Source: Paeniglutamicibacter psychrophenolicus (GTDB taxonomy: Bacteria > Actinomycetota > Actinomycetes > Actinomycetales > Micrococcaceae). Taken from it: a DNA stretch of 64,000 nt. Below the pieces are notes generated by a model. That model did not search any database. It was not told the DNA's origin and saw nothing but the letters and a program-made list of their open reading frames with translations. Shown in pieces: positions 13,136 to 31,539 of this stretch (positions within the stretch are counted from its first letter, which is position 1; every line of letters starts with the position of its first letter). The DNA lies in contig NZ_JAUSSH010000006.1 in assembly GCF_030812255.1 (NCBI RefSeq), positions 62,001 through 126,000 of the forward strand, in the 5' to 3' direction. The position numbers were made by a program, and so were the translations under genes.

Positions 13136-13195
13136 GTCCGGCATGTCGCATGGTGGCACCCCGCTTTTGGGTACCACGTGGCGGCTCCATGGCAT

Positions 13196-13215
13196 CCTTT
13201 CGTTCCAACGAAAGG
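13196..13215 (+). promoter_or_regulatory. Ribosome-site sequestering hairpin, riboswitch expression platform
   Basis: Arms CCTTTCGTT and AACGAAAGG form a hairpin that contains the only good ribosome-binding site, AAAGG, 9 bases before the ATG of the dehydrogenase. Its position below the TPP aptamer suggests translational control. The pairing is seen directly; the switching mechanism is inferred. Confidence 0.6.
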
Positions 13216-13224
13216 TGCAAGAGA

Positions 13225-14009: not shown

Positions 14010-15344
14010 ATGGACCCGACACGCCAACTGCACCTGAACGCCTTCATCTACGGCGCCGGCCACCACACCATGGGATGGCGCCACCCCGATTCCAGCGCCG
14101 ACCGCGTCGGTGACATCGCCTACTACGAGGACCTGGCCCGGCTGGCGGAGCGCGGTTGCCTGGATGCGGTGTTCTTCGCCGACGGGCAAAGCGTCAACCA
14201 CGAGTACGCGGCGGGGATCCCCTGGTTCCTCGAACCGGTGACCGCGCTGAGCGCCATGGCGCGGGCCACCGAGCACATTGGTTTGGTCACCACGATCTCT
14301 GCGAGCTTCTACACCCCGTTCCATGCCGCCCGGCTGCTGGCATCCCTCGACCACATCAGTTCGGGTCGCGCGGGCATCAACGTGGTGACTTCCATGTTTG
14401 ACGCCGAGGCCCGCAACCACGGGTTGGATGCCCTGCCGGGGCACGCACAACGCTACGAACGCGCCGAGGAGTTCGTGGACGCCATGCAGGGACTGTGGGA
14501 TTCGTGGTCGGATTCGGCGCTGGTGGTCGACCGCGAGGCCGGCCGATACCTCGATCCCTCCCAGATCCGCCCGATCAACCACCGCGGCAACCACTTCTCG
14601 GTTGCAGGCCCACTAACCGTCCCGCGGTGCCCGCAGGGGCGTCCGGTGCTGTTCCAGGCCGGGTCCTCGGAGGCCGGGCGTTCCTTTGCCGCCCGGTACG
14701 CCGAAGCCATCTACTCGGTTTCCTGGGACCGGGAATCGGCCTTGGAATATGCCGTGGACATGCGGAGGCGGTTGGAACTTGTGGGGCGGGCCGGGAATTC
14801 GGTGCCCATCCTTCCCGGGCTGGTCACCTACATCGGGCAGACCCGGGAGGAGGCCCGGGAAAAGAAGGCCGCCTTGGATGCCTACCTGGACACCGACTCG
14901 GCCATCACCCAGCTGAACATGTTCACGGGCCAGGACTACACCTCGCATCCGCTGGATGGGCCGGTGGCCGGCTTGCCGCCGGCCGAGGGTTTCACGGGCC
15001 CGCAGGGCCGCTATCTCACGGTGCAGCGCATCATTGAAACGAAGCAGCCCACGCTTCGCGAGTTGCTGGGATTCCTGGCGGCCGGCGGCGGGCATGCCAC
15101 CATGATCGGCACTCCCACCGAGGTCGCCGACGAGATCGAGGAGTGGTTCATTTCCGGCGCCTGCGACGGCTTTAACCTCATGTGCCCCAGCTTCCCGGCG
15201 GGGCTGGATGACTTCGTGGAACTCGTGGTGCCGATCCTGCAGGCACGAGGCTTGTTCCGCTCGTCATACCCGGGCAGCACCCTGCGCGAGACCCTGGGCC
15301 TGGCCAAGCCGGCACGTCAGGAGATCGTACCGGTTTCTGGTTGA
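14010..15344 (+). CDS. NtaA/DmoA-type FMN-dependent monooxygenase
   Basis: A 444-residue luciferase-like (LLM) flavin monooxygenase of the nitrilotriacetate/dimethylsulfide/alkanesulfonate branch. Hallmarks are FIYGAGHHTMGWRHP at the start, LDAVFFADGQS, GRAGINVVTS, HAQRYERAEEFV and GRPVLFQAGSSEAGRSFAA. Such enzymes use reduced FMN from a partner reductase to oxidise C-N, C-S or similar bonds; no flavin reductase is next door. It follows the SDR by 20 bases and shares its TPP riboswitch, which implies a substrate linked to thiamine or its thiazole or pyrimidine breakdown products. Substrate is not shown by the sequence. Confidence 0.88.
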   Translation: MDPTRQLHLNAFIYGAGHHTMGWRHPDSSADRVGDIAYYEDLARLAERGCLDAVFFADGQSVNHEYAAGIPWFLEPVTALSAMARATEHIGLVTTISASFYTPFHAARLLASLDHISSGRAGINVVTSMFDAEARNHGLDALPGHAQRYERAEEFVDAMQGLWDSWSDSALVVDREAGRYLDPSQIRPINHRGNHFSVAGPLTVPRCPQGRPVLFQAGSSEAGRSFAARYAEAIYSVSWDRESALEYAVDMRRRLELVGRAGNSVPILPGLVTYIGQTREEAREKKAALDAYLDTDSAITQLNMFTGQDYTSHPLDGPVAGLPPAEGFTGPQGRYLTVQRIIETKQPTLRELLGFLAAGGGHATMIGTPTEVADEIEEWFISGACDGFNLMCPSFPAGLDDFVELVVPILQARGLFRSSYPGSTLRETLGLAKPARQEIVPVSG

Positions 15345-18898: not shown

Positions 18899-19780
18899 AT
18901 GACCACACTCGTAGGCGACAGCAAGGGCCCCAGGGAGACCCCGGTCCCGCGACACCACCAGCTCATCGTCTCGTTGTTCGGCCTGTACGCACGCCAGCAC
19001 GGCGGTGCGCTGGCCGTGGCCACCATCATCGACCTGATGCGCGACATCGGGGTCGAGTCCACTGGAACCAGGTCCTCGATCTCGCGCCTGAAAAAGCGCG
19101 GCGTCATCGACAGCGTGCAGGTCAACGGCCGCAACGGCTACGCACTGGCCCCCTCGGTCATCGAAACGTTCATCGAGGGCGACGAACGCATCTTCCACCC
19201 CAGGCGGGCCAGGATCGGCGAGCAGTGGCTCCTGGCAACCTTCACCGTTCCGGAGTCGCAGCGCAACATCCGGCACAAGATCCGCTCCGCGCTGGTGCGC
19301 ATGGGCTTCGGTTCGGTGACCCCGGGGTTGTGGATCGCCCCGGGCCATCTCCGCGATGCGGTTCTGGCCTATTTCAACACCCGCGGGCTGAACGAGTACC
19401 TCGAGTTCTTTATGGCCGACCACGTCGGCGGGGCCGACCTGCACAAGAACATCGGGGCCTGGTGGGACCTGCCGGCACTTGACGCCCTGTACTCGGACTT
19501 CCTCGAGCACAACCGGGGGCTTCTGGAGTCGTGGGTCCAGCGCGACGGATTCGACGTCGATCCCGACTCCGATGCCAGGGCGTTCGGCGACTACCTGGTC
19601 CTGGTCACCCAGTGGCGACGCCTGCCCTACCTCGACCCGGGGCTGCCCACAGAGTTCCTGCCGCGGAACTGGAACGCCCTTGAAGCCGAGCAGCTCTTCC
19701 AGCAGCTCCACGTCTTGTTGGCCCCGCGCGCGCAGCGCCATGCCGACCGCGCCATCGACGACCACGCGGTCACCGGATAG
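18899..19780 (+). CDS. PaaX family transcriptional regulator
   Basis: A 293-residue regulator with an N-terminal winged helix (LIVSLFGLYARQHGGALAVA, then SISRLKKRGVIDS) and a PaaX C-terminal part (QWLLATFTVPESQRNIRHKI, FGSVTPGLWIAP, WDLPAL). PaaX proteins repress phenylacetate or related aryl-CoA catabolism and are released by an aryl-CoA ligand. Next to a CoA-dependent aromatic cluster, a CoA thioester of its substrate is the likely effector. The ATG at 18899 sits 6 bases after TAAGGT, suggesting a leaderless mRNA. A terminator separates it from the convergent ridA-like gene. Confidence 0.9.
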   Translation: MTTLVGDSKGPRETPVPRHHQLIVSLFGLYARQHGGALAVATIIDLMRDIGVESTGTRSSISRLKKRGVIDSVQVNGRNGYALAPSVIETFIEGDERIFHPRRARIGEQWLLATFTVPESQRNIRHKIRSALVRMGFGSVTPGLWIAPGHLRDAVLAYFNTRGLNEYLEFFMADHVGGADLHKNIGAWWDLPALDALYSDFLEHNRGLLESWVQRDGFDVDPDSDARAFGDYLVLVTQWRRLPYLDPGLPTEFLPRNWNALEAEQLFQQLHVLLAPRAQRHADRAIDDHAVTG

Positions 19781-19802
19781 TCGGTCCCCCCACCTTAACA
19801 AG

Positions 19803-19856
19803 AAGCCGTGCCGTGCAACCGCCCCCTTGCGGGGAAGCTGTTGCACGGCACGGCTT
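19803..19856. terminator. Bidirectional terminator with perfect 17-bp stem
   Basis: Arms AAGCCGTGCCGTGCAAC and GTTGCACGGCACGGCTT are perfect reverse complements around a 20-base GC-rich loop. It lies between the convergent paaX-like and ridA-like genes and can serve both. Confidence 0.85.
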
Positions 19857-19891
19857 CCTTGGTTGTTTGCCCTTCTTGCCGGCCCGGAAAA

Positions 19892-20311
19892 CTAGGCGCG
19901 GTCCTGGATCACCGCAATGCCCTGGATCTCGATGAGGGCCTCGGGCTGCCACAAGCGGCTTACGCCGATGCCGGCGAGCGCCGGATACTTGCTGCCTGCC
20001 ATCTCGCGCCAGAGCCGGCCAATCTCGCGGCCATTGGCCAGGTAGTCGTCTACGTCGGTGAGGTAGATGGTCACCGACACCAGGTCCTCGGGCTGTCCGC
20101 CGGCCTCGACGAGCGTTGCCAGGACGTTGGAGAACGCCTGCTTGAACTGGTCCACGATGTTGCCCGGAACGATCTTCATGTCCTTGTCCAGGGCGGTCTG
20201 GCCGCCCAGGTACACGGTCTTTCCCGCGAGCACACCGTGGGCGAATCCGGAGGGCTTGCCCAGTGAATCGGGGTTGATGGTGAGGTTCTGGATGAGGGTG
20301 GTTTCGGTCAT
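19892..20311 (-). CDS. RidA family enamine/imine deaminase-like protein
   Basis: A 139-residue RidA/YjgF-fold protein. It shows LYLGGQTALD-type beta strands (VYLGGQTALDKDMKIVPG), VSVTIYLTDVDDY and a C-terminal LIEIQGIAVI. The YjgF arginine expected near residue 105 is not seen: the region reads YPALAGIGVSRLW, with Arg later, so deaminase activity is not certain. Classical RidA hydrolyses reactive enamines to ketones. The ATG at 20311 follows GGAGAG. Divergent from the FAH-family gene and close to an aryl-CoA pathway, it may process an enamine such as the dearomatised product of 2-aminobenzoyl-CoA. That role is inferred. Confidence 0.87.
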   Translation of the reverse strand: MTETTLIQNLTINPDSLGKPSGFAHGVLAGKTVYLGGQTALDKDMKIVPGNIVDQFKQAFSNVLATLVEAGGQPEDLVSVTIYLTDVDDYLANGREIGRLWREMAGSKYPALAGIGVSRLWQPEALIEIQGIAVIQDRA

Positions 20312-20367
20312 CGTGCTCTCCTGGGGGTCTTGTGGCGATTGAGCGGCATTCCACTCTGGCGCAGGTT

Positions 20368-20383
20368 GGTGACGCGTGTTACA
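20368..20383. promoter_or_regulatory. CRP/GlxR-like site in divergent ridA/FAH region
   Basis: GGTGACGCGTGTTACA matches the TGTGA-N6-TCACA consensus at 8 of 10 fixed positions. It lies 57 bases from the ridA-like start and 70 bases from the FAH-family start. A second site of the same type occurs in the MFS promoter at 30106. Confidence 0.55.
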
Positions 20384-20452
20384 TTGAGAATACGTGACGG
20401 CAGTCAAAAAGTCGACACAGTAGATTTGATGGATGGCGAAGGAGCCAACGGA

Positions 20453-21298
20453 ATGAAACTCGCTACGGTTCGACATGGCGGGCGCACCACCGCCGCGCTG
20501 GTGGTGGCAGGCGGCTACCAGCCGCTGCCCGCACGCAATCTCAGCGAGCTGCTTGCCCTCCCCGGCTGGAAATCCATCCTCAAGGAAGCTTCCTCCGGAC
20601 ATTGCGGCCCCGATGTCCTGCCCGCATCCGAGATCGAACTGTTGAACCCGGTGCCGAACCCGGCAAAAGTCATTTGTTGCGGCCTGAACTATGCGGAGCA
20701 CATCCTGGAAATGGGACGCGAGCTCCCCGACTATCCCACGCTCTTCGCCAAGTTCGCCGACACCCTCACGGACCCCGATGCCCCGATCGTCGCCGACGAA
20801 TCGGTGGACCTGGACTGGGAGGCCGAGCTGGCCGTGGTTCTCGGATCCACCCTGAAGGACGCCTCCGAGGACGAAGCGGCAGCCGCCATCGCCGGCTACA
20901 CCGTGGCCAACGACATTTCCATGCGCGACTGGCAGCGCCGCACCCTGCAGTGGTTCCAGGGCAAGGCCTTTGACCGCACCACGCCGCTGGGACCCGTGCT
21001 GGTCACCGCCGATGCGCTGGATCCAGAGGCCGGCCTCGAGGTCATCTGCAGCCTCAACGGCGAAGAGGTCCAGCGCGGGAACACCAAGACGCTGGTCTTC
21101 TCCGCAGCCAGGCTCCTGTCCTACATCTCCAGCTTCACCGTGCTGCGCCCCGGCGACGTCGTCCTCACCGGAACCCCCGGCGGGGTCGGCATGGGCATGG
21201 TCCCGCCGCGCTTCCTGAAGGACGGGGACGAGCTGGTCACGCAGGTCCCCGGAATCGGAACCCTGCACAACCGCATCAGCCTGCGAATCAACGCTTAA
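20453..21298 (+). CDS. Fumarylacetoacetate hydrolase (FAH) family protein
   Basis: A 281-residue FAH-fold enzyme. Metal ligands are seen in LDWEAELAVVLG (E-x-E, after about residue 120) and TVANDISMRDWQ (Asp); GLNYAEH and LTGTPGGVG are family hallmarks. Members hydrolyse C-C bonds of beta-diketones such as fumarylpyruvate and acylpyruvates, or act as isomerases or decarboxylases. The ATG at 20453 follows AAGGAG by 9 bases. It opens a five-gene plus-strand run leading to the aryl-CoA ligase and hydroxylase, so a ring-cleavage or post-cleavage step is plausible. The exact reaction is not visible. Confidence 0.9.
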   Translation: MKLATVRHGGRTTAALVVAGGYQPLPARNLSELLALPGWKSILKEASSGHCGPDVLPASEIELLNPVPNPAKVICCGLNYAEHILEMGRELPDYPTLFAKFADTLTDPDAPIVADESVDLDWEAELAVVLGSTLKDASEDEAAAAIAGYTVANDISMRDWQRRTLQWFQGKAFDRTTPLGPVLVTADALDPEAGLEVICSLNGEEVQRGNTKTLVFSAARLLSYISSFTVLRPGDVVLTGTPGGVGMGMVPPRFLKDGDELVTQVPGIGTLHNRISLRINA

Positions 21299-21360
21299 CC
21301 CTGACAACCATGCCGACCGCCTCATCCACGCATCCAGCCACAGACCAAGGAGCCAAGCCC

Positions 21361-21846
21361 ATGAAAAACCCGACCCCCACCATCTACCGCACCGAGGGCG
21401 AGAACACCGTCTACGCCAACTCCAACGGAGTCGTGGTCCCCGTGGTCACCCGCAAGGGCGAAGAAGACTCCAACACCGCGCAATCCGGGGACTGCGTCCG
21501 CGTCTCCGGCGTCAGCATCCAGCACACCCCGGCCACGAAGCTCTGGTTCGGCCAGGTCTCCAACACCCCGGGCTACCGCTCGCTGCCCCACCACCACGGC
21601 GAAGCCGAGACCGGCGGCTACGTGCTGCGCGGCCACGGACGCATCTACTTCGGCGAGAACTACGAGCAGTTCCTGGACATGACAGCCGGCGACTGGGTCT
21701 TCGTCCCGCCGTTCATGCCGCACGTCGAGGCCAACATGTCGATCACCGAGGACCTCGTCTGGCTCACCGCCCGCACCCCGGAAAACATCGTGGTGAACCT
21801 CGAGGAAGTCGACGACGAAACCCTGGAAGGATACCGCCGGGCATGA
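21361..21846 (+). CDS. Small single-cupin protein
   Basis: A 161-residue cupin. The two cupin motifs are GYRSLPHHHGEAETGGYVLRG, which has the H-x-H and Glu ligands, and the later DWVFVPPFMPHVEAN with the last His. This gives a complete metal site. It is about half the length of gentisate 1,2-dioxygenases, which have two cupin domains, so it is not that enzyme by length; a small dioxygenase, isomerase or hydratase is possible. The start follows AAGGAG. Its stop overlaps the TesB-like start as ATGA. It belongs to the run FAH-cupin-thioesterase-ligase-hydroxylase. Confidence 0.82.
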   Translation: MKNPTPTIYRTEGENTVYANSNGVVVPVVTRKGEEDSNTAQSGDCVRVSGVSIQHTPATKLWFGQVSNTPGYRSLPHHHGEAETGGYVLRGHGRIYFGENYEQFLDMTAGDWVFVPPFMPHVEANMSITEDLVWLTARTPENIVVNLEEVDDETLEGYRRA

Positions 21847-22712
21847 GCTCACAAATCTTCCTTGATGCCATCGACTTGACCGCTTGCGAGGCCGAGGTCT
21901 TTGACACGGCCTTCACCGCCATCCCCCAATATGTTCCGTGGCCCAAGGCCTACGGCGGGGACATGGTGGCCCAGGGTGCCTCGGCCATGATGCGCTCGGT
22001 GGACGGGGACAGGGAACTGCACTCGATGCATTCCTACTTCCTGCGCCCCGTGGACATGCACGTTCCGGTCCGCTACGAGGTCGAGCTGATGCGCGACGGC
22101 CGCGGCTACTCCACCCGCCAGGTGCGCGGCTTCCAAAACGGCAAGGCCGTCTACACCGCCCTGGGCTCCTTCCACGTACCCGAAACCGGTCCCGAACAGT
22201 CCACCACGGCACCGGCCGAATTCCTGGACCTGGATCCCGAAACCCTGGCCAGCGCGGCGAACGTGCTCGCCTCGGCCGAGGGTCCAGCCGCCGAGTACTG
22301 GTCCACCGGCCGGTCCTTCGACATGCGCCACGTTCCCGGGGCCCTGTACCTCGAGGTCGACGGCAAGCCCTCGGCCCACCAGGCGGTCTGGGTCAAGGCG
22401 TTCACCGAGCTTCCCGATGACCAGATCACCCAGCGCGCGGCCCTGGCCTACGTGTGCGACTACACCATCCTGGAACCGCTGCTGCGGACCCAGAACCTGT
22501 CCTGGAGCACCACCGGACTTGTCACCGCGAGCCTCGACCACTCCATGTGGTTCCACCGCAGCGGACGCGTGGACGACTGGGTGCTCTACGTCCAGGAAGC
22601 CATCTCCAGCCAAAACAACCGCGGCCTGGCCCTGGGCCGCTTCTACACCCGTGACGGCCAGCTGCTGGCCACCGTCGCCCAGGAGGGCATGATCCGCGGA
22701 CCGCGCGGCTAA
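21843..22712 (+). CDS. TesB-type acyl-CoA thioesterase
   Basis: A 289-residue double-hotdog protein. The N-terminal unit has AFTAIPQYVPWPKAYGGDMV and LHSMHSYFLRPVDMHVPVRY, and the C-terminal unit has LAYVCDYTILEPLL and SLDHSMWFHRSGRVDDWVLY, matching acyl-CoA thioesterase II. It would hydrolyse an acyl- or aryl-CoA to free acid and CoA. The ATG overlaps the cupin stop (ATGA), so translation is coupled. In a CoA-dependent pathway it may release a product such as gentisate from gentisyl-CoA, or act as a safety valve for trapped CoA; both are inferred. Confidence 0.88.
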   Translation: MSSQIFLDAIDLTACEAEVFDTAFTAIPQYVPWPKAYGGDMVAQGASAMMRSVDGDRELHSMHSYFLRPVDMHVPVRYEVELMRDGRGYSTRQVRGFQNGKAVYTALGSFHVPETGPEQSTTAPAEFLDLDPETLASAANVLASAEGPAAEYWSTGRSFDMRHVPGALYLEVDGKPSAHQAVWVKAFTELPDDQITQRAALAYVCDYTILEPLLRTQNLSWSTTGLVTASLDHSMWFHRSGRVDDWVLYVQEAISSQNNRGLALGRFYTRDGQLLATVAQEGMIRGPRG

Positions 22713-22771
22713 GGCACCACAAGCACCATTGCAATCTTGAAAATCGACTCTTGGAAAGAGACGGCAAGTTC

Positions 22772-24403
22772 ATGGAATTATCGCTTTCGGCCCATCAAGA
22801 CACCTTCACGCGCGACCACCTGCCGCCGCACGAATTGTGGCCAACCCTGGAATTCACGCTGCCCGAACTGCAGTACCCCGAAAGGCTCAACGCCGCGACG
22901 GTGCTGATCGACGACGCTGTGGCAAGGTTCGGTGCAGATTCACCGGCCCTGCTGGCTCCCGACGGAACGGTGCAAGGCTACGGGGAGCTACTCGCCCGCG
23001 CCAACCAGGTCGCCCAGGTGTTGGTCGAGGACTTCGGGATCGTCCCCGGAAACCGGGTCATGCTCCGGGCCCCCAACAACGCCTGGCTCGTGGCCTGCTG
23101 GCTCGGGGTTCTGAAGGCCGGCGCCGTCGTGGTCACCACCATGCCGGCCCTGCGCGCCCCGGAAATCGCCAAGCTTGCCCACCTAACCAAGCCCTCCCTG
23201 ATGCTGTGCGACCACCGGTTCCTGGATGACGCCCGGGCCGCGGCGGGTTCCGCCTATCCGGTCGTGGCAGTCGGTTCGCAGGACCCCTCCGACCTGGTGG
23301 CACTTTCAGGTTCCAGGTCGGGCCAGTTCACCAACGTCGACACGGCGGCCGACGACGTGGCCCTGCTGGGCCCGACCTCCGGGACCACCGGGGTCCCGAA
23401 GATCACCATGCACTTCCACCGTGACATCCTGGCCAACGCTGACACCTTCGCCCGGCACATCCTGCAGCCGACACCCGGCGACGTGTTCGCAGGCTCCCCG
23501 CCCCTGGCTTTCACCTTCGGCCTGGGCGGATTGGTCGTCTTCCCGCTGCGCTTCGGCGCCAGCACCCTGCTCACCGAGCGCACCACCCCGGTGGAGCTCG
23601 CCCAGCTGTCCCACGACGCGAAGGCCACGATCCTGTTCACCGCGCCGACCGCCTACCGCGCCATCCTGAAGGAGGGCAAGGCGGAGTTGCTGCGCCCGTT
23701 GCGCCTGGGGGTCTCGGCCGGCGAGCATCTGCCGGCTGCCACCTGGGAAGCCGTCAAGGACGCCACCGGGCTGGAGTTGATCGACGGGATCGGCTCGACC
23801 GAGCTGCTGCACGTGTTCATCTCGGCCGCCGGGGCGGACATCCGCCCCGGCACCACCGGGACGGCGGTTCCCGGCTACCGCGCCACCATTCTTGACCTTG
23901 ACGGCAACGAACTCGGGCCGGACGAGGTCGGCCTGCTGGCCGTCATCGGCCCCACCGGCTGCCGATACCTGGATGACGAGCGCCAGCACGCCTACGTCTC
24001 CAATGGCTGGAACGTCACCGGTGACACCTTCGTGCGCGACGCCGAGGGCTACTTCACCTACCAGGCACGCAGCGACAACATGATCGTCTCCTCCGGCTAC
24101 AACATCGGCGGGCCCGAGGTCGAGGAAGCCATCATCCAGCACCCCGACGTGATGGAAACCGCCGTCGTCGCACGGCCCGACGAACAACGCGGCTCGGTGG
24201 TCTGCGCCTTCGTGGTGCTGGTGGACGGGGTCACCGGTTCGGCCGAGAAGGCCAAGGAACTCCAGGACTTCGTCAAGACGGTCATCGCACCCTACAAGTA
24301 CCCGCGCGACATCCGTTTCGTCGACGAGCTGCCCCGGAACCCCAGCGGCAAGCTCCAGCATTTCAAGCTGCGCGAGGCCCTGGCCCAATCCCCGGCCCTC
24401 TAG
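22772..24403 (+). CDS. Benzoate/2-aminobenzoate-type CoA ligase
   Basis: A 543-residue ANL-family acid-CoA ligase. The P-loop-like motif is GPTSGTTGVPKI, then NGWNVTGDTFVRDAEGYFTY and the catalytic lysine in RNPSGKLQHFKLRE. The overall length and VLRAPNNAWLV pattern place it near the benzoate-CoA and 2-aminobenzoate-CoA ligases. It would make an aryl-adenylate from ATP, then the aryl-CoA. The ATG at 22772 follows GAAAGAGA; a TTG seven codons upstream is less likely. The hydroxylase gene that follows would use its product. The aryl acid is not fixed by sequence: anthranilate, salicylate or benzoate are candidates. Confidence 0.9.
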   Translation: MELSLSAHQDTFTRDHLPPHELWPTLEFTLPELQYPERLNAATVLIDDAVARFGADSPALLAPDGTVQGYGELLARANQVAQVLVEDFGIVPGNRVMLRAPNNAWLVACWLGVLKAGAVVVTTMPALRAPEIAKLAHLTKPSLMLCDHRFLDDARAAAGSAYPVVAVGSQDPSDLVALSGSRSGQFTNVDTAADDVALLGPTSGTTGVPKITMHFHRDILANADTFARHILQPTPGDVFAGSPPLAFTFGLGGLVVFPLRFGASTLLTERTTPVELAQLSHDAKATILFTAPTAYRAILKEGKAELLRPLRLGVSAGEHLPAATWEAVKDATGLELIDGIGSTELLHVFISAAGADIRPGTTGTAVPGYRATILDLDGNELGPDEVGLLAVIGPTGCRYLDDERQHAYVSNGWNVTGDTFVRDAEGYFTYQARSDNMIVSSGYNIGGPEVEEAIIQHPDVMETAVVARPDEQRGSVVCAFVVLVDGVTGSAEKAKELQDFVKTVIAPYKYPRDIRFVDELPRNPSGKLQHFKLREALAQSPAL

Positions 24404-24497
24404 CCACACTTCCCACACTTCTCCCCCGTCAGCACCGCACGGCACCGGAACCTTCACCGGCCGCCGCAGCCCTGCCGACCCTTGAAAGGACCCAGAC

Positions 24498-26894
24498 ATG
24501 AAAATCGCAGTTGTTGGCGGCGGCCCCGGCGGCCTGTACTTCGCGGCCCTGATGAAGCAGCTCGACCCCGCCCACGAGGTCACCGTCTGGGAGCGCAACG
24601 CGGCCTCGGACACCTTTGGCTTCGGCGTGGTCTTCTCGGATGAGACCCTCGGCGGCATCGGCAACGCCGACACCGTCATTGCCGATTACATGTCCCGGCG
24701 CTTCGCCCGCTGGAGTGACATCGACATCCACTTCCGCGGGCAGATGCACACCGTGGGAGGCCAGGGCTTTGCCGCCATGAGCCGCAAGGAACTGCTCCAG
24801 CTGCTGCAGCGCCGCGCCATCGAACTTGGCGTCGACGTGCGCTTCTCGACCATCGCCCCGGATGTGGAAGAGCTTTCGGCAAACTACAACCTGGTGCTGG
24901 CCGCGGATGGCTTGAACTCCGCGATCCGCACCCGCTTTGCCGAGTCCTTCAAGCCGTCCCTGGATGCGCGCACCTCGAAGTACATGTGGCTGGGCACCGA
25001 CCAGGTGTTCGAGGCCTTCAAGTTCTTCGTCAAGGAGACCGATGCCGGGACCATGCAGATCCACGGCTACCCGTACTCGGAGACGGGCTCGACCTTCATC
25101 GTGGAAATGCACGAGGACGTCTGGCGGGCCGCGGGCTTCGACGAGACGCAGGACGAGGTGTTCGCCCCCGGGGTGAGCGATGAGAAGGCGGTGGCCAAGG
25201 TCAAGGAGATCTTCGCCGAGGAACTGGCCGGCCACAACGTGCTGACCAACAACTCGAAGTGGATCAACTTCACCACCGTGCGCAATGAAAACTGGCGCCA
25301 CGAAAACATCGTGCTGCTCGGCGATGCCGCGCACACCGCGCACTTCTCCATCGGCTCGGGCACCAAGCTCGCCATGGAGGACTCCTTGGCGCTGGCAGCC
25401 TGCCTGCACGAACACCCCTCCGTCGAGGCGGCACTGGAAGCCTATGAGACCGAGCGCCGCCCGGTGGTCGCCTCCACCCAGCGCGCCGCCCAGGCCTCGC
25501 TGGAGTGGTTCGAGAACATCGGGCAGTACAAGGACCAGGACCCGGTGCAGTTCTGCTTCAACCTGCTCACCCGCTCCCGCCGCATCACCTATGAGAACCT
25601 GTTGCTGCGCGACACCAGCTTCGCCGCGAAGGTCGACGCCGACTTCGCGCGCCGGGCTGGCTCCGCGGAAACCGCACCGGCAATGTTCCAGCCCTACAGG
25701 ATCGGCGAGCTGGAGTTGGTGAACCGCGTGGTGGTCTCACCCATGGACATGTACTCGGCCACCGACGGCGTGCCCGGGGACTTCCACCTGGTGCACCTGG
25801 GATCCAAGGCCATGGGTGGCGCCGGGCTGGTCATGACCGAAATGGTCTGCGTCTCGGACATCGGGCGCATCACCCCCGGCTGCACGGGTTTGTACAACGA
25901 CGAGCAGGCGGGCGCCTGGAAACGCATCACCGACTACGTGCACGGCAACTCGAACGCCAAGATCGGCGCGCAGATCGGCCACTCCGGACGCAAGGGCTCC
26001 ACCAGGCTCATGTGGGAGGGCATCGACGAGCCCCTGGAAGCCGGCAATTGGGAGGTGCTGGCGCCCAGCGCGATCCCCTACGGCGAAGGCTGCCACGTCC
26101 CGGTGGAAATGGACCGCAAGCAGATGGATGAGGTCCGCGAACAGTTCGTCTCCGCGGCCCGGCGTGCCGACGCGGCGGGCTTCGACCTGCTGGAGCTGCA
26201 CGCGGCCCACGGCTACCTGCTTTCCTCCTTCCTTTCCCCGCTGTCGAACAAGCGCACCGACGGGTACGGCGGATCGCTGGAAAACCGCCTGCGCTATCCG
26301 CTGGAGGTGCTCGATGCGGTGCGCGGTGCATGGCCGGCGCACAAGCCGATCGGTGTGCGCATCTCCGCCACCGACTGGGCCGAGGGCGGGAACACCGAGG
26401 ACGACGCGCTGGCCATCGCCCAGGCGTTCATCGAGCACGGGGTCAAGTCAATCGACGTCTCCTCCGGGCAGATCGTGCGCAATGAACGCCCCGCGTTCGG
26501 GCGCAGCTACCAGACCCCGTTCGCGGACAAGATCCGCAACCAGGTCGCGGCGGCGGCGGGCGTCGCGGTCATCGCGGTCGGGGCGATCTCCTCCTACGAC
26601 GATGTGAACTCGATCCTGCTGGCGGGACGTGCAGATCTGGTCGCCCTGGGCCGCACGCACCTGTACAACCCGCAGTGGACGCTGCAGGCGGCCGCCGAGC
26701 AGGACTACGTCGGGGACGGAGCCACCTGGCCGCTGCCGTTCAAGGCCGGGCGCCGCAAGCCGCCGAGCGCCCGCACCGACGCGGTCCGCCCGCGCCTGTC
26801 GCTGCTGAAGGAGGACGAGCTTGACGAGCAGGTCCACCTGCGCTGGACCCCGGCCAAGGACAAGGCAACCGGGAACCTGGTGCCGAGCGTCTAG
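24498..26894 (+). CDS. Fused FAD monooxygenase / Old Yellow Enzyme (aryl-CoA hydroxylase-reductase)
   Basis: A 798-residue fusion. Residues 1-385 form a class A FAD monooxygenase: GxGxxG in IAVVGGGPGGLYFAALMKQL and the GD motif in LLGDAAHTAHF. Residues about 395-770 form an OYE-type FMN barrel: FQPYRIGELELVNRVVVSPM, IGAQIGHSGRKGS and DLLELHAAHGYLLSSFLSP. This is the layout of 2-aminobenzoyl-CoA monooxygenase/reductase and of proteins named bifunctional salicylyl-CoA 5-hydroxylase/oxidoreductase. The first half hydroxylates the ring of the CoA thioester and the second can reduce the product and break aromaticity. The ligase upstream supplies the substrate. GAAAGGA precedes the ATG. Which of the two chemistries applies cannot be told here. 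Confidence 0.93.
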   Translation: MKIAVVGGGPGGLYFAALMKQLDPAHEVTVWERNAASDTFGFGVVFSDETLGGIGNADTVIADYMSRRFARWSDIDIHFRGQMHTVGGQGFAAMSRKELLQLLQRRAIELGVDVRFSTIAPDVEELSANYNLVLAADGLNSAIRTRFAESFKPSLDARTSKYMWLGTDQVFEAFKFFVKETDAGTMQIHGYPYSETGSTFIVEMHEDVWRAAGFDETQDEVFAPGVSDEKAVAKVKEIFAEELAGHNVLTNNSKWINFTTVRNENWRHENIVLLGDAAHTAHFSIGSGTKLAMEDSLALAACLHEHPSVEAALEAYETERRPVVASTQRAAQASLEWFENIGQYKDQDPVQFCFNLLTRSRRITYENLLLRDTSFAAKVDADFARRAGSAETAPAMFQPYRIGELELVNRVVVSPMDMYSATDGVPGDFHLVHLGSKAMGGAGLVMTEMVCVSDIGRITPGCTGLYNDEQAGAWKRITDYVHGNSNAKIGAQIGHSGRKGSTRLMWEGIDEPLEAGNWEVLAPSAIPYGEGCHVPVEMDRKQMDEVREQFVSAARRADAAGFDLLELHAAHGYLLSSFLSPLSNKRTDGYGGSLENRLRYPLEVLDAVRGAWPAHKPIGVRISATDWAEGGNTEDDALAIAQAFIEHGVKSIDVSSGQIVRNERPAFGRSYQTPFADKIRNQVAAAAGVAVIAVGAISSYDDVNSILLAGRADLVALGRTHLYNPQWTLQAAAEQDYVGDGATWPLPFKAGRRKPPSARTDAVRPRLSLLKEDELDEQVHLRWTPAKDKATGNLVPSV

Positions 26895-26909
26895 CATCGG
26901 AAGCAGGGC

Positions 26910-26950
26910 GGGAGTGGCTCGATTCGCGTGAAGCGGGGTGAGCCGCTCCC
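26910..26950 (+). terminator. Terminator hairpin after hydroxylase gene
   Basis: Arms GGGAGTGGCTC and GAGCCGCTCCC pair with one mismatch, 15 bases past the plus-strand stop. It is probably the terminator of the FAH-to-hydroxylase run. Confidence 0.65.
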
Positions 26951-27003
26951 TCTGTGCATTCCCGCCAAGATCCGGAGTGGCGCCATGCAGAAGACACCGA
27001 AAA

Positions 27004-27048
27004 GCGCGGAGTGCCGGCGAGGAACGTTTCCCACCCGGCACTCCGCGC
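27004..27048 (-). terminator. Terminator hairpin after ThDP-enzyme gene
   Basis: Perfect 14-bp arms GCGCGGAGTGCCGG and CCGGCACTCCGCGC with a 17-base loop, just past the minus-strand stop at 27070. It probably ends the hotdog-cyclase-ThDP transcript. Confidence 0.75.
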
Positions 27049-27069
27049 CGGTGATTCCGGGCGATTGCC

Positions 27070-28728
27070 TTAGTGCCCCTTGAACGCCTCCGCGAGCCAC
27101 CAGGCACCCGAGTCCGAGGCGATCTTTGCGTCGATGACCAGCGGCCTGCTTGGGCTTGAATCCAGCCATGCCTGCACCGCGTCCAGGTCCGCGAGGGTGC
27201 GCACGGTGATCCCGTCGGCGCCGAATCCGCGGCCAATGGCGGCGAAGTCGGTGTCCGGGAATTGCACGATGCCCATGTCCGCTTCCGGGTTCCCGGTCCC
27301 GAAGTGGTGAACCTCGGCGCCGTAGGCCGCGTCGTTGTAGACGATGCAGACCAGCGGCATGCCCAGCCGCACCGCGGTGTCCAGCTCGGCGATGGCCATG
27401 TGGAAGCCGCCGTCGCCGGTGCCCAGCACCGGCATGCGTCCGGGCTGTGCCAAGCCCGCACCGATGGCCGTGTACAGGCCAAGCCCGATGGACTGGAACG
27501 CCTGGGTGAAGCAGAACCCGAATTCGTCGGGCACCGAGAGGTACTGACTGGGGTAGCCCATGAAGTTCCCGGAATCCACACTGACGATGCGCTCGGCCGG
27601 AAGCAGCTCGTCGAGGCGCTTGGTCAGCGCGCGCGGGTCGATGAGCCGAGCGTCGGACAGGTCACCGAAGTCGACCTGGTTCCAGTGGATCGATTCCTTG
27701 ATGCGCGCGGCGACGGCAGCGGTGCGGTAGCCCTCGCGGGCCTGAACGTTGCGGGCTAGCAGCCCTTCGAGCACGTCTGCCGCGCACTGCGCCGAGTCCC
27801 CCACGATTCCCAGGTCGATGGGCCGGTTGGCCCCCAGCGCTTGCTCCTCCAGGTCGACCTGGACGACCCTGGTGTCGGTGCCGATCAGGTGCCCGTGACG
27901 CATGGTCCACATGTTCAGCGCGCAGCCGAAGCCGATGATGAGATCCGCATCGGTGATCAGTTCGGCCGCCAGGGGCGAGGAGAACCCGCCGGAAATGCCG
28001 AGGTTGAACTCGTCCTCATTAAACAGGCCCTTGGCCACCGCGGAGGTCGCCACCAGGGCACCGGCATGCTTCGCCAGGTCCAGGATCTCGTCCCGGGCCC
28101 CGCGCCCGCCGCGGCCGGCGACGAACACCGGGCGCGTGGCCTTGCCGATCAGCTCTGCGAGGGCCTTCACCGAGGCGCGCGAGGGCCGGATCGGTTCCGC
28201 CGGGGCCATGGACGCCGTCGCCTGGGCCTGCTCGTCCGTGGCTTCTTGAGCTTGGACGTCCAGCGGCAGGTTCAACACCACGGTGCGGCGGTCGTTCACC
28301 GCGCGGCGGTACGCGCGAATGGTGTCAGCCACCGCCGACCGGGCAGAGTTCACGCGCTCGGGCACCGCATAGACGGATGCGGCAAAGGCGTCCTGGTCCA
28401 TGGCGAAATTCGAGTAAACCGCGGATGGCGCCGCCTCGGCGGCCAGCACGATCATCGGGGTGCGGGACTTGGCCGCCTCCCCTATGCCGGTTGCCGCGTT
28501 GGTCAGCCCGCAGCCCTGGTGCACCGAGAGCAGGGCCACCTGCCCGCTGCCCCGTGAGTAGGCATCGGCCATGGTGGCGGCCCCGCCCTCGTGCCGGGCC
28601 GCTGTGAAGGGAACCCCGTGTTCGACCAGGGTGTTGGTGATGGTGAAGTTGCCCGAGCCCACCACTCCGAAGCAGTGGCCGACGCCGAGTTCGGCCAGGG
28701 TCTTGCCGACGAGTTGTGCAACGTTCAT
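27070..28728 (-). CDS. Thiamine diphosphate-dependent enzyme (acetolactate synthase-like)
   Basis: A 552-residue ThDP enzyme with the usual three domains: an N-terminal PYR domain holding the catalytic Glu in ARHEGGAATMADAYS (Glu near residue 47), a central domain, and a C-terminal PP domain with GTGDGGFHMAIAELD and VYNDAAYG (the GDG...N site for ThDP-Mg). The family includes acetolactate synthases, benzoylformate decarboxylase and cyclohexane-1,2-dione hydrolase; the last opens a ring diketone. No small subunit gene is nearby and no other amino acid synthesis gene, so acetolactate synthesis is unlikely. The ATG at 28728 lies 2 bases after the cyclase stop. A ring-cleaving or decarboxylating role in the aromatic cluster is inferred. 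Confidence 0.88.
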   Translation of the reverse strand: MNVAQLVGKTLAELGVGHCFGVVGSGNFTITNTLVEHGVPFTAARHEGGAATMADAYSRGSGQVALLSVHQGCGLTNAATGIGEAAKSRTPMIVLAAEAAPSAVYSNFAMDQDAFAASVYAVPERVNSARSAVADTIRAYRRAVNDRRTVVLNLPLDVQAQEATDEQAQATASMAPAEPIRPSRASVKALAELIGKATRPVFVAGRGGRGARDEILDLAKHAGALVATSAVAKGLFNEDEFNLGISGGFSSPLAAELITDADLIIGFGCALNMWTMRHGHLIGTDTRVVQVDLEEQALGANRPIDLGIVGDSAQCAADVLEGLLARNVQAREGYRTAAVAARIKESIHWNQVDFGDLSDARLIDPRALTKRLDELLPAERIVSVDSGNFMGYPSQYLSVPDEFGFCFTQAFQSIGLGLYTAIGAGLAQPGRMPVLGTGDGGFHMAIAELDTAVRLGMPLVCIVYNDAAYGAEVHHFGTGNPEADMGIVQFPDTDFAAIGRGFGADGITVRTLADLDAVQAWLDSSPSRPLVIDAKIASDSGAWWLAEAFKGH

Positions 28729-28730
28729 GG

Positions 28731-29507
28731 TCAGTTCCTTCCAACCATGGCGAGCACGCGCGTGGGAGCACCGGTGCCGCCGACGATCGGCAGCGGGGCC
28801 ACCACGATCATGGCCCCATGGGTGGGCAGCTTGTCCAGGTTCTTCAGCGAGGTGATGCCATATTTGTCGGCGCCCAGCAGGAAGTAGTGCATCGGGAACG
28901 GCGGGTTCAGCGCCCCGGCGTTCCCGGCGTCGATGCCCACGGTTTCCACCCCGATGCCGGAGATGTCGAGCTCCTCGGCGATCCACTTGGCGCACTCGGC
29001 GGTGAAGCCCGGGGTGTGGGATCCGTCCTCGTCCAGGTTCAGGAATGCCTGCTTGTCGTGGTCAAAGCGATTCCAGCCGGTGTGGAAGAGCAACCACGCA
29101 TTGGCCGGGAAAGTTCCATGTTCCTCCTGCCAGGTCACCAGGTGCTCCACGTCGATCAGGAAGTCGGGGTCCGCGGATGATTGCTCGCTGAAGTCCAGGA
29201 CCACCGCGGGACCGATGAGGCGTGCGGGGTCGAGCTGGGAGACGTCCTTGCCCTCGCGCCCGGAGATCCAGTGGATCGGGGCGTCGATGTGCGTGCCGAT
29301 GTGCTCGCCGGTGTGGATGTTGTGGTGCTTCCAGTACGGGCCGGGCTCGTTGTAGGCGGAGACCTCTTCGATGCGGAAGTCGATCAGGTTGGCGAACGGC
29401 TCGGGCAGCACCAGCGTGGGGGTCTGGGCCGACAGCGGCGCGGTCAGGTCGACCACTTCCACCGTGCCTGTTGCCAGCGAGGAAAGCATGTTTTGTACGG
29501 GGCTCAT
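28731..29507 (-). CDS. Cyclase/kynurenine formamidase-family hydrolase
   Basis: A 258-residue member of the cyclase family (COG1878). The metal motif HIGTHIDAPIHW (H-x-G-T-H-x-D-x-P-x-H) is complete. Family members include kynurenine formamidase, isatin hydrolase and other enzymes that hydrolyse C-N or C-C bonds with Zn or Mn. The ATG at 29507 follows AGGAACC. It is followed within 2 bases by the ThDP enzyme and preceded by a hotdog thioesterase, which suggests consecutive steps. If the pathway acts on an anthranilate-like substrate, opening of an amide- or lactam-like ring would be a fitting reaction; this is a guess. Confidence 0.88.
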   Translation of the reverse strand: MSPVQNMLSSLATGTVEVVDLTAPLSAQTPTLVLPEPFANLIDFRIEEVSAYNEPGPYWKHHNIHTGEHIGTHIDAPIHWISGREGKDVSQLDPARLIGPAVVLDFSEQSSADPDFLIDVEHLVTWQEEHGTFPANAWLLFHTGWNRFDHDKQAFLNLDEDGSHTPGFTAECAKWIAEELDISGIGVETVGIDAGNAGALNPPFPMHYFLLGADKYGITSLKNLDKLPTHGAMIVVAPLPIVGGTGAPTRVLAMVGRN

Positions 29508-29588
29508 GGTGGGTTCCTGTGTTGTTGGTGGCCAGAGTGTGGATTCCGGTCAGGCTAGCAGCGAACCAAGGTCGCCTGCATGCCCTGC

Positions 29589-30080
29589 TCAGATGGTGGA
29601 TCGTTGTTTCAGCGCGGCAAGGACCGTCGCCGGCCAAGGTGCCGATTTTTCGGCGCCTTCGGGCACGCAAACCGTTACAAAGCGACCTTCGGCCGCGAGC
29701 ACGGCTTCGCGCCCTTCGTGTGGATGCCCCCAGACCTTGAAGGCAAAGGAGATGGAGCTGGTACCGACATGTTCGATGGCCACTGCGGTGCTCACGCGTT
29801 GCCCGAAGTAGAGTTTTGCGCGGTAGTCGATTTCGTGGCGTACCCGAGGTGCATTCCCGAAGTAGGAAACGACTCCCAGCTCCCGAAAGAGCCTGGCTTC
29901 GGCGGCCTCGACAAACCTCATCACCACGGAGTTGTGTTGGTGCCCGGCCGCATCGGTGTCGATCCATTCGATGTGGCGCTCAAGCACACTTCCGGACAAG
30001 CCGGCGGCCAGGAACTCCTCTGCCGCATCCGCAACGGCAGACACTTGCGATGCACCCATGTCATCCGATTGTCCGATCAT
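29589..30080 (-). CDS. Small hotdog thioesterase (4HBT/YbgC-type)
   Basis: A 163-residue single-hotdog protein. The 4HBT motif is visible as EWIDTDAAGHQHNSVVMRF, with the catalytic Asp and the D-x-x-G-H-x-x-N region. Such enzymes hydrolyse aryl- or acyl-CoA. The ATG at 30080 follows GGAGAAAA; an ATG at 30059 is an alternative. It heads the minus-strand trio with cyclase and ThDP enzyme, 81 bases from the cyclase gene, and is divergent from the aromatic-acid permease. It differs in type from the TesB-like enzyme in the same cluster. Confidence 0.82.
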   Translation of the reverse strand: MIGQSDDMGASQVSAVADAAEEFLAAGLSGSVLERHIEWIDTDAAGHQHNSVVMRFVEAAEARLFRELGVVSYFGNAPRVRHEIDYRAKLYFGQRVSTAVAIEHVGTSSISFAFKVWGHPHEGREAVLAAEGRFVTVCVPEGAEKSAPWPATVLAALKQRSTI

Positions 30081-30105
30081 CGTAAAGTTTTCTCCATCAA
30101 TCTAT

Positions 30106-30121
30106 TGTTACGCACGTCACA
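30106..30121. promoter_or_regulatory. CRP/GlxR-like site in divergent thioesterase/permease region
   Basis: TGTTACGCACGTCACA matches TGTGA-N6-TCACA at 9 of 10 fixed positions and lies 26 bases from the hotdog start and 74 from the MFS start. It resembles the site at 20368 and the site at 61549. Confidence 0.6.
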
Positions 30122-30195
30122 TTAACGACATAATACAAGCATTCGCTGTTCCACCTCCATCAAGACTTGACCCCTTCACATGAGGAGCCCTAAGC

Positions 30196-31539
30196 ATGGC
30201 GGCAACACAAACCAGCACCGACTGGAACATCCCCAAACGCACCACCTCGGTGGTCCTCTTTGCCTGTTGGCTGGCGATCTTGGCCGAAGGCTACGACGTT
30301 GGAGTCCTTGGCGCCGTCCTGCCGGCGTTGGCCGAGTACCAGGAATGGTCGCTGACCCCGCTGCAGCTTGGCGGACTGGGCGCCTATGCGCTGGTCGGCA
30401 TGCTTTTCGGAGCCCTGTTCATCGGAACCCTGAGCGATGTCATCGGTCGGCGCAGGATGCTCCTGCTCTCGATGGCGATCTTCACCATTACCCAGGCCGG
30501 GGCCGCCCTGGCCCCGACCCCGGAGATGTTTGGCTTGTTCCGCTTCCTCGGCGGCCTGGGCATGGGCGGAATCATTCCCGTCGCCGCGGCATTGACGATC
30601 GAATACTCGGCACCCAGGAAGCGGTCGCTGAACTACGGCATCATGTACTCGGGCTATTCGCTGGGCATCGTCGCCGCGGCCATGGTGGCCATGGCCTTGC
30701 TGCCGACGCTTGGCTGGCGCTGGGTGATTGCCGTGGGCACGCTTCCGATCTTGATCCTTCCCGTGGTCGCCTGGCTCATTCCCGAATCCCTTGAATACCT
30801 GGTGGCCAAGGGCAGGATCCCCGAGGCCAAGGCGCTGGCCGCGAAGTTGAATGTGCGCGACTACCAGCCGGTAGCGCCGGCGAACCCGGGCCGGAGGATC
30901 CCTTGGCGCGAGGTCATGGCCTCCATGTTCTCCCGCAAGTATCTGCGCTCAACGGTGTTCTTCTGGATCTCGCTGTTCTGCGGGATGGTGCTGGTCTATG
31001 GCCTGAACACGTGGCTGCCACAGATCATGCGCAAGGCAGGCTACGACCTGGGATCCTCCCTGGCCTTCCTGCTCGTGTTCTCCCTGGCTTCCGCAATCGG
31101 CGGGCTGGTCCTGGGCTTCCTCGCCGACAGATATGGACAGAAGACCATCCTGGTGCTCTTCTACCTGCTCGGCGCCGGCGGCATCCTGTTGCTGATGTTC
31201 CCGAACACCATGTTCGTGAACCTCTGCTTTGTGGCGTTTGCCGGCATCGGATCGATCTCCACCTCCCTGGTGCTCACCGGATACATTGCCGACTACTACC
31301 CGGCCGCCCAGCGCGGCACAGCCACCGGCTGGGCACTGTCTTTCGCACGCATCGGTGCCATCTCCGGGCCGATCATCGGCGGCTGGATTGCATCAACGGG
31401 ACTGAGCTTCGAGTTCAACTTCATCTTCTTCGCCATCGTTGGAGTGGTGGCCGCCATTGCCGTTGCATTGATCCCGAAGCGGATCGTCGAGACGCCGGCA
31501 GCGGCGGAAATCCTCGAACGCGAGGCATCGTTCGACTAG
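30196..31539 (+). CDS. MFS aromatic acid:H+ symporter (AAHS family)
   Basis: A 447-residue 12-helix MFS transporter. The AAHS hallmark appears as AEGYDVGVLGAVLPAL in the first helix, and the loop 2-3 motif as GTLSDVIGRRRMLL; PRKRSLNYGIMYSGYSLG is also typical. Relatives (PcaK, BenK, MhpT, GenK) import benzoate-type acids with protons. RBS GAGGAGCC precedes the ATG at 30196. It probably imports the substrate of the catabolic cluster. A terminator follows. Confidence 0.92.
   Translation: MAATQTSTDWNIPKRTTSVVLFACWLAILAEGYDVGVLGAVLPALAEYQEWSLTPLQLGGLGAYALVGMLFGALFIGTLSDVIGRRRMLLLSMAIFTITQAGAALAPTPEMFGLFRFLGGLGMGGIIPVAAALTIEYSAPRKRSLNYGIMYSGYSLGIVAAAMVAMALLPTLGWRWVIAVGTLPILILPVVAWLIPESLEYLVAKGRIPEAKALAAKLNVRDYQPVAPANPGRRIPWREVMASMFSRKYLRSTVFFWISLFCGMVLVYGLNTWLPQIMRKAGYDLGSSLAFLLVFSLASAIGGLVLGFLADRYGQKTILVLFYLLGAGGILLLMFPNTMFVNLCFVAFAGIGSISTSLVLTGYIADYYPAAQRGTATGWALSFARIGAISGPIIGGWIASTGLSFEFNFIFFAIVGVVAAIAVALIPKRIVETPAAAEILEREASFD

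Follow-up and report, generated by a model that had tools for sequence, protein, structure and literature searches.

A cluster of catabolic genes in Paeniglutamicibacter psychrophenolicus was analyzed within a 64,000-nucleotide stretch of contig NZ_JAUSSH010000006.1 (positions 62,001 to 126,000; hereafter the window, with positions counted from its first letter). The cluster is likely to join a module that converts isatin, which arises in indole breakdown, to anthranilate with a coenzyme A (CoA)-dependent module that degrades the anthranilate ring. It consists of two separable modules, both real and conserved: a CoA-dependent anthranilate module, and a pair of genes encoding an isatin-hydrolase-like cyclase-family protein and a thiamine diphosphate (ThDP) enzyme. 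The comparison with related loci shows the protein families, the conserved residues, the genes that travel together and the separability of the two modules. The probable role of the cyclase/ThDP pair is the formation of anthranilate from isatin, and not the opening of the ring of this module.

Gene content of the locus

The gene inventory was obtained from Pfam and NCBIfam scans and a composition-based gene call. An earlier reading of the DNA, made from the letters alone (the sequence-only reading), had named a ligase, a fused FAD monooxygenase/Old Yellow Enzyme protein, two thioesterases, an FAH protein, a cupin, RidA, a ThDP enzyme, a cyclase-family hydrolase, a PaaX regulator and an aromatic permease, and all of them were found:

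18899..19780, + strand: PaaX-family repressor (PF20803/PF08223/PF07848), likely the regulator of the anthranilate module
19892..20311, - strand: RidA-family enamine/imine deaminase (PF01042; stop at 19892, start ATG)
20453..21298, + strand: FAH-family protein (PF01557, E = 7e-67; start set at the second Met of an open reading frame [ORF] from 20330)
21361..21846, + strand: small cupin (Cupin_2/Cupin_1; start set at the second Met, ORF from 21310)
21843..22712, + strand: TesB-type acyl-CoA thioesterase (PF02551/PF20789/PF13622)
22772..24403, + strand: AMP-binding aryl-CoA ligase, an anthranilate-CoA ligase by homology (start at Met, ORF from 22751)
24498..26894, + strand: FAD monooxygenase/Old Yellow Enzyme fusion of the 2-aminobenzoyl-CoA monooxygenase/reductase type (PF01494 and PF00724)
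27070..28728, - strand: ThDP enzyme, proposed isatinate (2-aminobenzoylformate) decarboxylase (PF02776/PF00205/PF02775; stop at 27070)
28731..29507, - strand: cyclase-family protein, proposed isatin hydrolase (PF04199)
29589..30080, - strand: 4HBT-type thioesterase (PF13279)
30196..31539, + strand: permease of the major facilitator superfamily, aromatic acid/H+ symport type (PF07690; 304 bits against TIGR00895, under its cut-off of 419)

Anthranilate as the probable substrate of the CoA-dependent module

Anthranilate as the substrate of the CoA-dependent module is the most secure of the assignments made here; the isatin module comes next, and the chemistry of RidA, the cupin and the FAH protein is the least secure. 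Compared with solved structures, the ligase matched the anthranilate-CoA ligase 4wv3 best (E = 8e-72), followed by benzoate-CoA ligases (4e-66). The module adjoins a kynureninase gene in some relatives and the Pseudomonas quinolone signal (PQS) dioxygenase gene aqdC1 in another, and in pAL1 it lies on a quinaldine plasmid; kynureninase and the PQS dioxygenase AqdC1 both lead to anthranilate. Arthrobacter sp. Rue61a harbors the linear plasmid pAL1 (NC_009453), whose genes for PaaX, RidA, FAH, cupin, thioesterase, ligase and fusion follow one another as in the window; the six enzymes are 61 to 80% identical between the two, with values of 73% for the ligase and 76% for the fusion. The plasmid differs in that its PaaX gene lies on the opposite strand and in that no isatin hydrolase or ThDP gene was present in the 30-kb stretch fetched. 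The nearest relatives of the fusion with a named origin come from an unclassified Micrococcaceae metagenome-assembled genome and from Glutamicibacter protophormiae.

Excerpts of PMC3534580 report that the pAL1 ligase, once expressed, proved to be an anthranilate-CoA ligase; by gene order, the pAL1 ligase compared here is the one assayed on anthranilate. In the same excerpts, Rue61a grows on anthranilate, shows no growth on salicylate, gentisate or 5-hydroxyanthranilate, and converts 5-hydroxyanthranilate cometabolically. Anthranilate-grown cells hold C7H7NO3-CoA and C7H8O4-CoA, for which the authors suggested hydroxyanthraniloyl-CoA and cyclohexanedione-carboxyl-CoA (PMC3534580, excerpts). The composition C7H8O4-CoA fits a deaminated, reduced cyclohexanedione-carboxyl-CoA.

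Gene sets for ring degradation

Four aerobic anthranilate routes are listed in an excerpt of PMC4539516, proceeding via catechol, gentisate, 3-hydroxyanthranilate, or 2-aminobenzoyl-CoA with beta-oxidation. The 2-aminobenzoyl-CoA pathway of Azoarcus evansii (PMC4539516, excerpt) shares a ligase and a monooxygenase/reductase with the window; unlike the Azoarcus type, which has enoyl-CoA hydratase (ECH) and acyl-CoA dehydrogenase (ACAD), the window has FAH, cupin and thioesterase genes. The sequence-only reading had held that beta-oxidation genes and a full-length gentisate dioxygenase are missing, and both absences were borne out. Using tblastn with ECH and ACAD proteins from an operon of the beta-oxidation type, the sole match in the window was ECH-like, 31% identical and located at 57337, and the gentisate dioxygenase model TIGR02272 had no match at an E value of 0.001 in the 4.57-Mb host genome (in the control search, 4 of 14 control genomes gave matches, none over the cut-off). 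Its view that the aryl-CoA route is neither of the Azoarcus beta-oxidation type nor of the standard gentisate type also holds, and the ring set of the window recurs in other genomes.

Loci around the fusion gene (numbered with the prefix L) were compared for the best 80 of at least 591 confirmed candidates, a sample in which Streptomyces is overrepresented, so that the counts are not population rates. In this and the following comparisons, tblastn matches below 40 to 50% query coverage and alignment rows with internal stops were discarded. Three gene sets were distinguished. Type I, with ECH and/or ACAD, accounted for 46 loci, 37 of which had RidA (32 of the 34 with flanks of at least 5 kb on both sides). 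Type II, the set of the window with cupin and TesB, was found in 25 loci, with RidA in 24 (22 of 22 with both flanks of 5 kb) and FAH in 22; a PaaX gene was found in most of the type II loci listed. Type III, comprising a long gentisate-dioxygenase-like cupin, FAH, a C-N hydrolase and a gene of the Asp/Glu-racemase family, was found in four loci, none of which had RidA. The remaining loci were one partial type II (L027) and four unassigned, among these L033 with FAH and a weak ECH match, and no locus of the 80 mixed types I and II at the thresholds used. The long cupin of L098 scored 330 bits, under the gentisate dioxygenase cut-off of 442. The gene content of type III is that which would be expected if nitrogen were lost late, as an amide after ring cleavage. 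As type II loci contain RidA and gave no match to the nitrogen and racemase-family genes of type III, nitrogen probably leaves early in the type II route. The type III sets in L059, L067, L071, L094 and L098 are candidate genes for a 5-hydroxyanthranilate route.

In the route proposed for type II, the ligase would convert anthranilate to anthraniloyl-CoA, and after the fusion protein RidA would hydrolyze an enamine to 2,5-dioxocyclohexanecarboxyl-CoA. A thioesterase would then release the beta-keto acid, a tautomer of dihydrogentisate, which the cupin would cleave with O2 between C1 and C2 to give succinylpyruvate. The small cupin is accordingly proposed to be a metal-dependent ring-cleaving dioxygenase; its residues H94, H95, H96, E98, E100 and H138 (numbered from 21310) are invariant in 31 aligned rows including the window, the cupins of L083 and L134 having been excluded from the alignment. 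The FAH protein would act as an acylpyruvase, splitting succinylpyruvate into succinate and pyruvate. Its solved relatives include a 2,4-diketo-3-deoxyrhamnonate hydrolase, acylpyruvases, maleylpyruvate hydrolases, isomerases and decarboxylases, the first-ranked being named a hydratase, and because of these mixed activities hydrolysis is not singled out. Such a route would employ each enzyme gene once, the second thioesterase excepted, and would account for C7H8O4-CoA. For the proteins of the window itself every reaction is an inference, the steps of RidA, the cupin and the FAH protein most of all.

Several observations weigh against this scheme. The cupin had no informative relative among solved structures (best E = 0.011), and its structure model was poor, with a predicted local distance difference test (pLDDT) score of 46 (5 of the 31 cupin rows, from plasmid records, were removed before prediction). 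Position 110 of RidA, presumably the substrate-binding Arg, is Arg in 15 of 31 type II rows versus 34 of 36 type I rows. FAH is absent from the cluster in 3 of the 25 type II loci, and L027 (Nocardioides) is an exception to the cupin step, as it carries RidA, FAH, TesB, ligase and fusion yet gave no cupin match. The type II locus L002 carries a C-N hydrolase of its own, and the type I locus L040 matches the type III C-N hydrolase. No assay of the cupin, FAH or RidA steps was found in the literature. Finally, since a second, chromosomal gene pair was inferred in Rue61a (PMC3534580, excerpt), the metabolites of this strain are not attributable to the pAL1 set alone.

A somewhat unlikely alternative is an aromatic variant, in which 5-hydroxyanthranilate or gentisate would be released, the small cupin would form maleamyl- or maleylpyruvate and the FAH protein would hydrolyze it. 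Such a variant would agree with the formation of 5-hydroxyanthraniloyl-CoA under limiting NADH and with the C7H7NO3-CoA of Rue61a (PMC3534580, excerpts), as well as with the gentisate pathway described for anthranilate breakdown in Nocardia opaca (Cain 1968, as cited in an excerpt of PMC4539516), and type III loci resemble it. However, the type II loci among the 80 have RidA in place of the type III C-N hydrolase and Asp/Glu-racemase, neither of which gave a match in them (the C-N hydrolase of L002 is a different one). The host genome likewise lacked a match to the type III racemase-family protein, in a search that had no positive control, and to gentisate dioxygenase. The failure of Rue61a to grow on 5-hydroxyanthranilate or gentisate also speaks against this variant, although uptake could be the cause.

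The isatin hydrolase-like protein

The cyclase-family protein is probably an isatin hydrolase, judging from its closest solved relatives, the isatin hydrolases 5nmp, 5nnb, 5nna and 4j0n (E = 3e-74 to 7e-64); kynurenine formamidases are much weaker relatives (5e-5). The Mn ligands and catalytic residues given for the Labrenzia enzyme in an excerpt of PMC6117287 (His69, His73, Asp75, His79, Asp193 and His207) are kept in the window protein as H69, H73, D75, H79, D193 and H207 and in all 38 aligned rows (window included). The protein thus shares family and metal/catalytic residues with the Labrenzia and Ralstonia isatin hydrolases and differs from them in the Thr at the position of Gln219 and in the pairing of its gene with a ThDP gene. 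Across the class, a hydrolase gene was identified at 59 places, spread over 58 of the 394 genomes, the host's among them. According to an excerpt of the review PMC6221969, functional identification of the isatin hydrolase gene of indole degraders is worth investigating.

The enzyme would convert isatin to isatinate, and the same isatin-isatinate-anthranilate sequence features in the auxin degradation (iad) route of Variovorax and Bradyrhizobium. In Roseibium and Sulfitobacter, a homologue of the hydrolase is part of an iad-like gene arrangement. Unlike the Roseibium iad-like locus, the window gave no match to its Rieske oxygenase, thiolase or ligase; no IadC, IadD, IadF or IadG match was found in the window with queries from this locus, and the sole match to a Roseibium query was a short-chain dehydrogenase/reductase (SDR) in the iadJ position, 29% identical, at 13249.

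The ThDP enzyme

The ThDP gene begins with an ATG two bases after the TGA of the cyclase gene. Isatinate is 2-aminobenzoylformate, and the ThDP enzyme is proposed to work like benzoylformate decarboxylase while not being a member of that family. It would decarboxylate isatinate, most likely to 2-aminobenzaldehyde, which an aldehyde dehydrogenase encoded elsewhere would convert to anthranilate. Residues S25, E47, H70 and H278 do not vary across 27 aligned rows, from which the truncated ThDP gene of L016 was left out, and were likened by position and motif, not by direct alignment, to Ser26, Glu47, His70 and His281 of benzoylformate decarboxylase, several of which tolerate substitution (PMC6028569, excerpt). 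Among seven of the 10 other places in the genome with ThDP enzymes, none had His at position 70 or 278, and one had Ser at position 25.

Among solved structures, BbmA ranked first (5e-43) and benzaldehyde lyase scored 8.5e-38, followed at a distance by cyclohexane-1,2-dione hydrolase (1e-24, rows 48 and 49 of the solved relatives listed). The structure model of the enzyme (pLDDT 87.9; 3 of the 27 rows, from plasmid records, were removed before prediction) was closest in fold to benzaldehyde lyase, at 25 to 27% identity. Among the best 50 fold matches, 4-hydroxybenzoylformate decarboxylase stood at ranks 46 and 49, and cyclohexane-1,2-dione hydrolase was not present. The enzyme has the ThDP fold of benzoylformate decarboxylase and benzaldehyde lyase and a Ser/Glu/His/His set that, by position and motif, may resemble theirs; its identity to benzaldehyde lyase is low and its score falls far under the NCBIfam cut-off for benzoylformate decarboxylase. 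Membership of the benzoylformate decarboxylase family was rejected on this score (NF005485, 137.8 bits versus a cut-off of 493), and membership of the cyclohexane-1,2-dione hydrolase family was rejected as benzaldehyde lyase and BbmA are far closer; none of the NCBIfam models listed for the protein was passed.

In Variovorax, according to excerpts of PMC12633357, C8H7NO3 and C7H7NO come after the IadI product and before anthranilate. These compositions fit isatinate and 2-aminobenzaldehyde.

The isatin half of the reading also has evidence on its other side. The residue at the position of Gln219 of the Labrenzia A enzyme is Thr in the window protein and in 33 of 38 rows; this position is not family-defining, as it is Ala in Labrenzia isatin hydrolase B (PMC6117287, excerpt). 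The solved benzoylformate decarboxylase 6qsi (E = 3.8e-22) was a weaker relative of the ThDP enzyme than cyclohexane-1,2-dione hydrolase. Two aldehyde dehydrogenase queries gave no match in the window, which was the part of the genome searched. A nine-gene iad region restored anthranilate in Variovorax, and no ThDP enzyme is named in it in the excerpts of PMC12633357. No hydrolase match accompanies the ThDP gene of L020, and in L099 to L101 the hydrolase had neither a ThDP nor the other partner described below within about 8 kb.

It is unlikely, though conceivable, that the substrate of the pair is not isatin but a different cyclic aryl amide or 2-oxo acid. The hydrolase is common in the class, and the pair often stands alone: among stand-alone hydrolase pairs there were no widely recurrent neighbors, the most frequent being four families present in just 3 or 4 of 18 loci. 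Against another substrate stand the retention of the isatin hydrolase catalytic residues in every aligned row and the physical linkage of the pair to fusion genes in the window, L008, L143 and L149, among others.

Partners of the hydrolase and separability of the two modules

Neighbors of the hydrolase were examined with 1.5-kb flanks at the best 30 of the 59 places, of which 29 were non-own (L103 to L131). A window-type ThDP gene was present in 27 of these and the alpha gene of an indolepyruvate-oxidoreductase (IOR)-type enzyme in the other two, with none of the 29 having both partners or neither. The ThDP gene was also present at three further hydrolase places (L149 to L151), making 32 of the 58 non-own places examined altogether. 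Both partners belong to families of ThDP-using 2-oxo-acid enzymes, the kind of enzyme that would have to follow a hydrolase whose product is a 2-oxo acid. The IOR-type protein of L002 was under the NCBIfam cut-off (266 versus 651 bits).

Eight of the 80 fusion loci had the hydrolase, four with the ThDP gene and four with IOR. A further exception to the pairing is L016, a locus that ends within the ThDP gene. Over all loci examined, fusion, hydrolase and IOR occurred together in eight. A ligase match was present in L002, in its near copy L134 and in L027, and there was none in L024, L059, L075, L098 and L146; in L098 and L146 one flank of the fusion is short, and the IOR of L098 was taken from annotation. 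Another eight loci combined the fusion with the hydrolase and the ThDP gene, six of them with a ligase (the window, L008, L017 of Glutamicibacter protophormiae, L018, L083 and L149) and two without (L095 and L143). This distribution leans weakly towards an IOR-type enzyme that forms anthraniloyl-CoA directly, bypassing the ligase.

Within the genus, 15 genomes (own included) were compared. The fusion and cupin genes were found in the same 13 and the hydrolase and ThDP genes in the same 12, and because of this co-occurrence the gene grouping is not due to chance. The thirteenth genome, G402, has fusion and cupin, and its whole genome gave no hydrolase or ThDP match. In a wider comparison the two modules are often apart. 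Of 20 actinobacterial hydrolase loci (L132 to L151) with longer flanks where the contig allowed, four had a fusion gene (L134, L143, L146 and L149) and 16 had none, and a hydrolase/ThDP pair lies inside the beta-oxidation-type anthranilate operon of Deinococcus psychrotolerans. For a quick tree built from 92 fusion proteins, loci were labeled as isatin loci if they had the pair, IOR and hydrolase, or the ThDP gene alone; this label required 10 changes on the tree and the type II ring label three. Co-occurrence of the pair with the fusion gene, on which the sequence-only reading depends, stands within the genus (12 of 13) and fails more widely (16 of 20 loci without fusion). The pair accompanies the module within the genus, but its wider distribution speaks against a role in ring opening.

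In L017 (16625-19332), L083 (14591-17292), L024, L027, L059 and L075, the isatin module contains or adjoins a gene for a luciferase-like FMN monooxygenase, with a flavin reductase match in five of these six loci and a match to an AraC-type regulator in four. The AraC protein of L083 shows similarity, below the cut-off, to the anthranilate regulator AndR. The monooxygenase of these six relatives may act before isatin, and it is not part of the window's cluster.

Improbable readings: salicylate as substrate and ring opening by the pair

It is very improbable that the cluster degrades salicylate, the substrate suggested by the name of the fusion. The fusion passes the NCBIfam model NF006101, named for salicylyl-CoA 5-hydroxylase (1,221 bits, cut-off 1,078), with FAD monooxygenase and Old Yellow Enzyme domains in a single chain. 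The pAL1 fusion carries the same name, though Rue61a does not grow on salicylate (PMC3534580, excerpt), and so do fusions inside two other operons, one of them the beta-oxidation-type operon of Deinococcus psychrotolerans. A salicylate route would leave RidA without an obvious substrate. Salicylate was rejected as the substrate on the pAL1 naming, the homology of the ligase to a solved anthranilate-CoA ligase, and the neighbor genes of relatives that lead to anthranilate.

Least probable of all is the proposal of the sequence-only reading that the dearomatized ring is opened by the ThDP enzyme together with the cyclase-family hydrolase, in the manner of cyclohexane-1,2-dione hydrolase: the pair does sit in the cluster and in most fusion-bearing genomes of the genus, and that hydrolase is a detectable relative of the ThDP enzyme, but the same ring module occurs without the pair in the stretches fetched from pAL1, BG43, NJ-530 and ERGS1:01 (the last with a weak 31% FAH match) and in the genome of G402, the pair occurs inside a beta-oxidation-type operon and mostly away from fusion genes, the hydrolase is closest to isatin hydrolases, and the ThDP enzyme is closer to benzaldehyde lyase than to the dione hydrolase. 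Overall, the earlier reading was right about the unusual ring set and in doubting both textbook routes, and was not supported as to the ring openers.

Novelty and significance

Returning to the joining of an isatin-to-anthranilate module with an anthranilate-CoA module, we tentatively suggest that the locus might represent a fifth aerobic anthranilate route, running through RidA, thioesterase and cupin to succinate, pyruvate and ammonia without beta-oxidation or maleate and coupled to a dedicated ThDP isatinate decarboxylase; in relatives, the IOR-type enzyme would replace the ThDP enzyme and may make anthraniloyl-CoA. The suggestion that this is an undescribed branch agrees with a literature search of titles, abstracts and passages, with subscription journals mostly outside it, in which no paper assigning the type II ring genes was found among those listed. 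The same search found no gene assignment for an isatinate decarboxylase, and both negatives are weak evidence of novelty; if the proposal is true, the ThDP enzyme would fill the step from isatin to anthranilate.

The analysis provides testable gene assignments for two steps in actinobacteria, the conversion of isatinate to anthranilate and ring opening after 2-aminobenzoyl-CoA in clusters that lack beta-oxidation genes. As relatives carry the same module next to genes that degrade tryptophan, quinaldine or PQS, solving it would explain many clusters with a salicylate-named fusion gene.

Other features of the window

The PaaX gene sits just 5' of position 19892, where the sequence-only reading had the cluster begin. 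The TesB-type thioesterase scored 194 bits against TIGR00189, under the cut-off of 293. The 4HBT-type thioesterase gene is probably part of the anthranilate module, as 4HBT matches lie near the fusion in loci without the isatin pair (for example L001, L004, L005 and L019); the permease gene is oriented away from it.

A kynureninase over the cut-off is encoded elsewhere in the host genome (G000:C4:168966-170162), so anthranilate could also derive from tryptophan. An SDR gene (13150-13989) and a luciferase-like monooxygenase gene (14010-15344) lie approximately 3.5 to 6 kb before PaaX, and this monooxygenase shares 86% identity with a protein of L016. A scan for repeats yielded one that stood out, a 21-nucleotide inverted repeat at 19802-19857 (95% complementary, 14-nucleotide gap). 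It lies where the PaaX and RidA genes converge and is possibly a transcription terminator.

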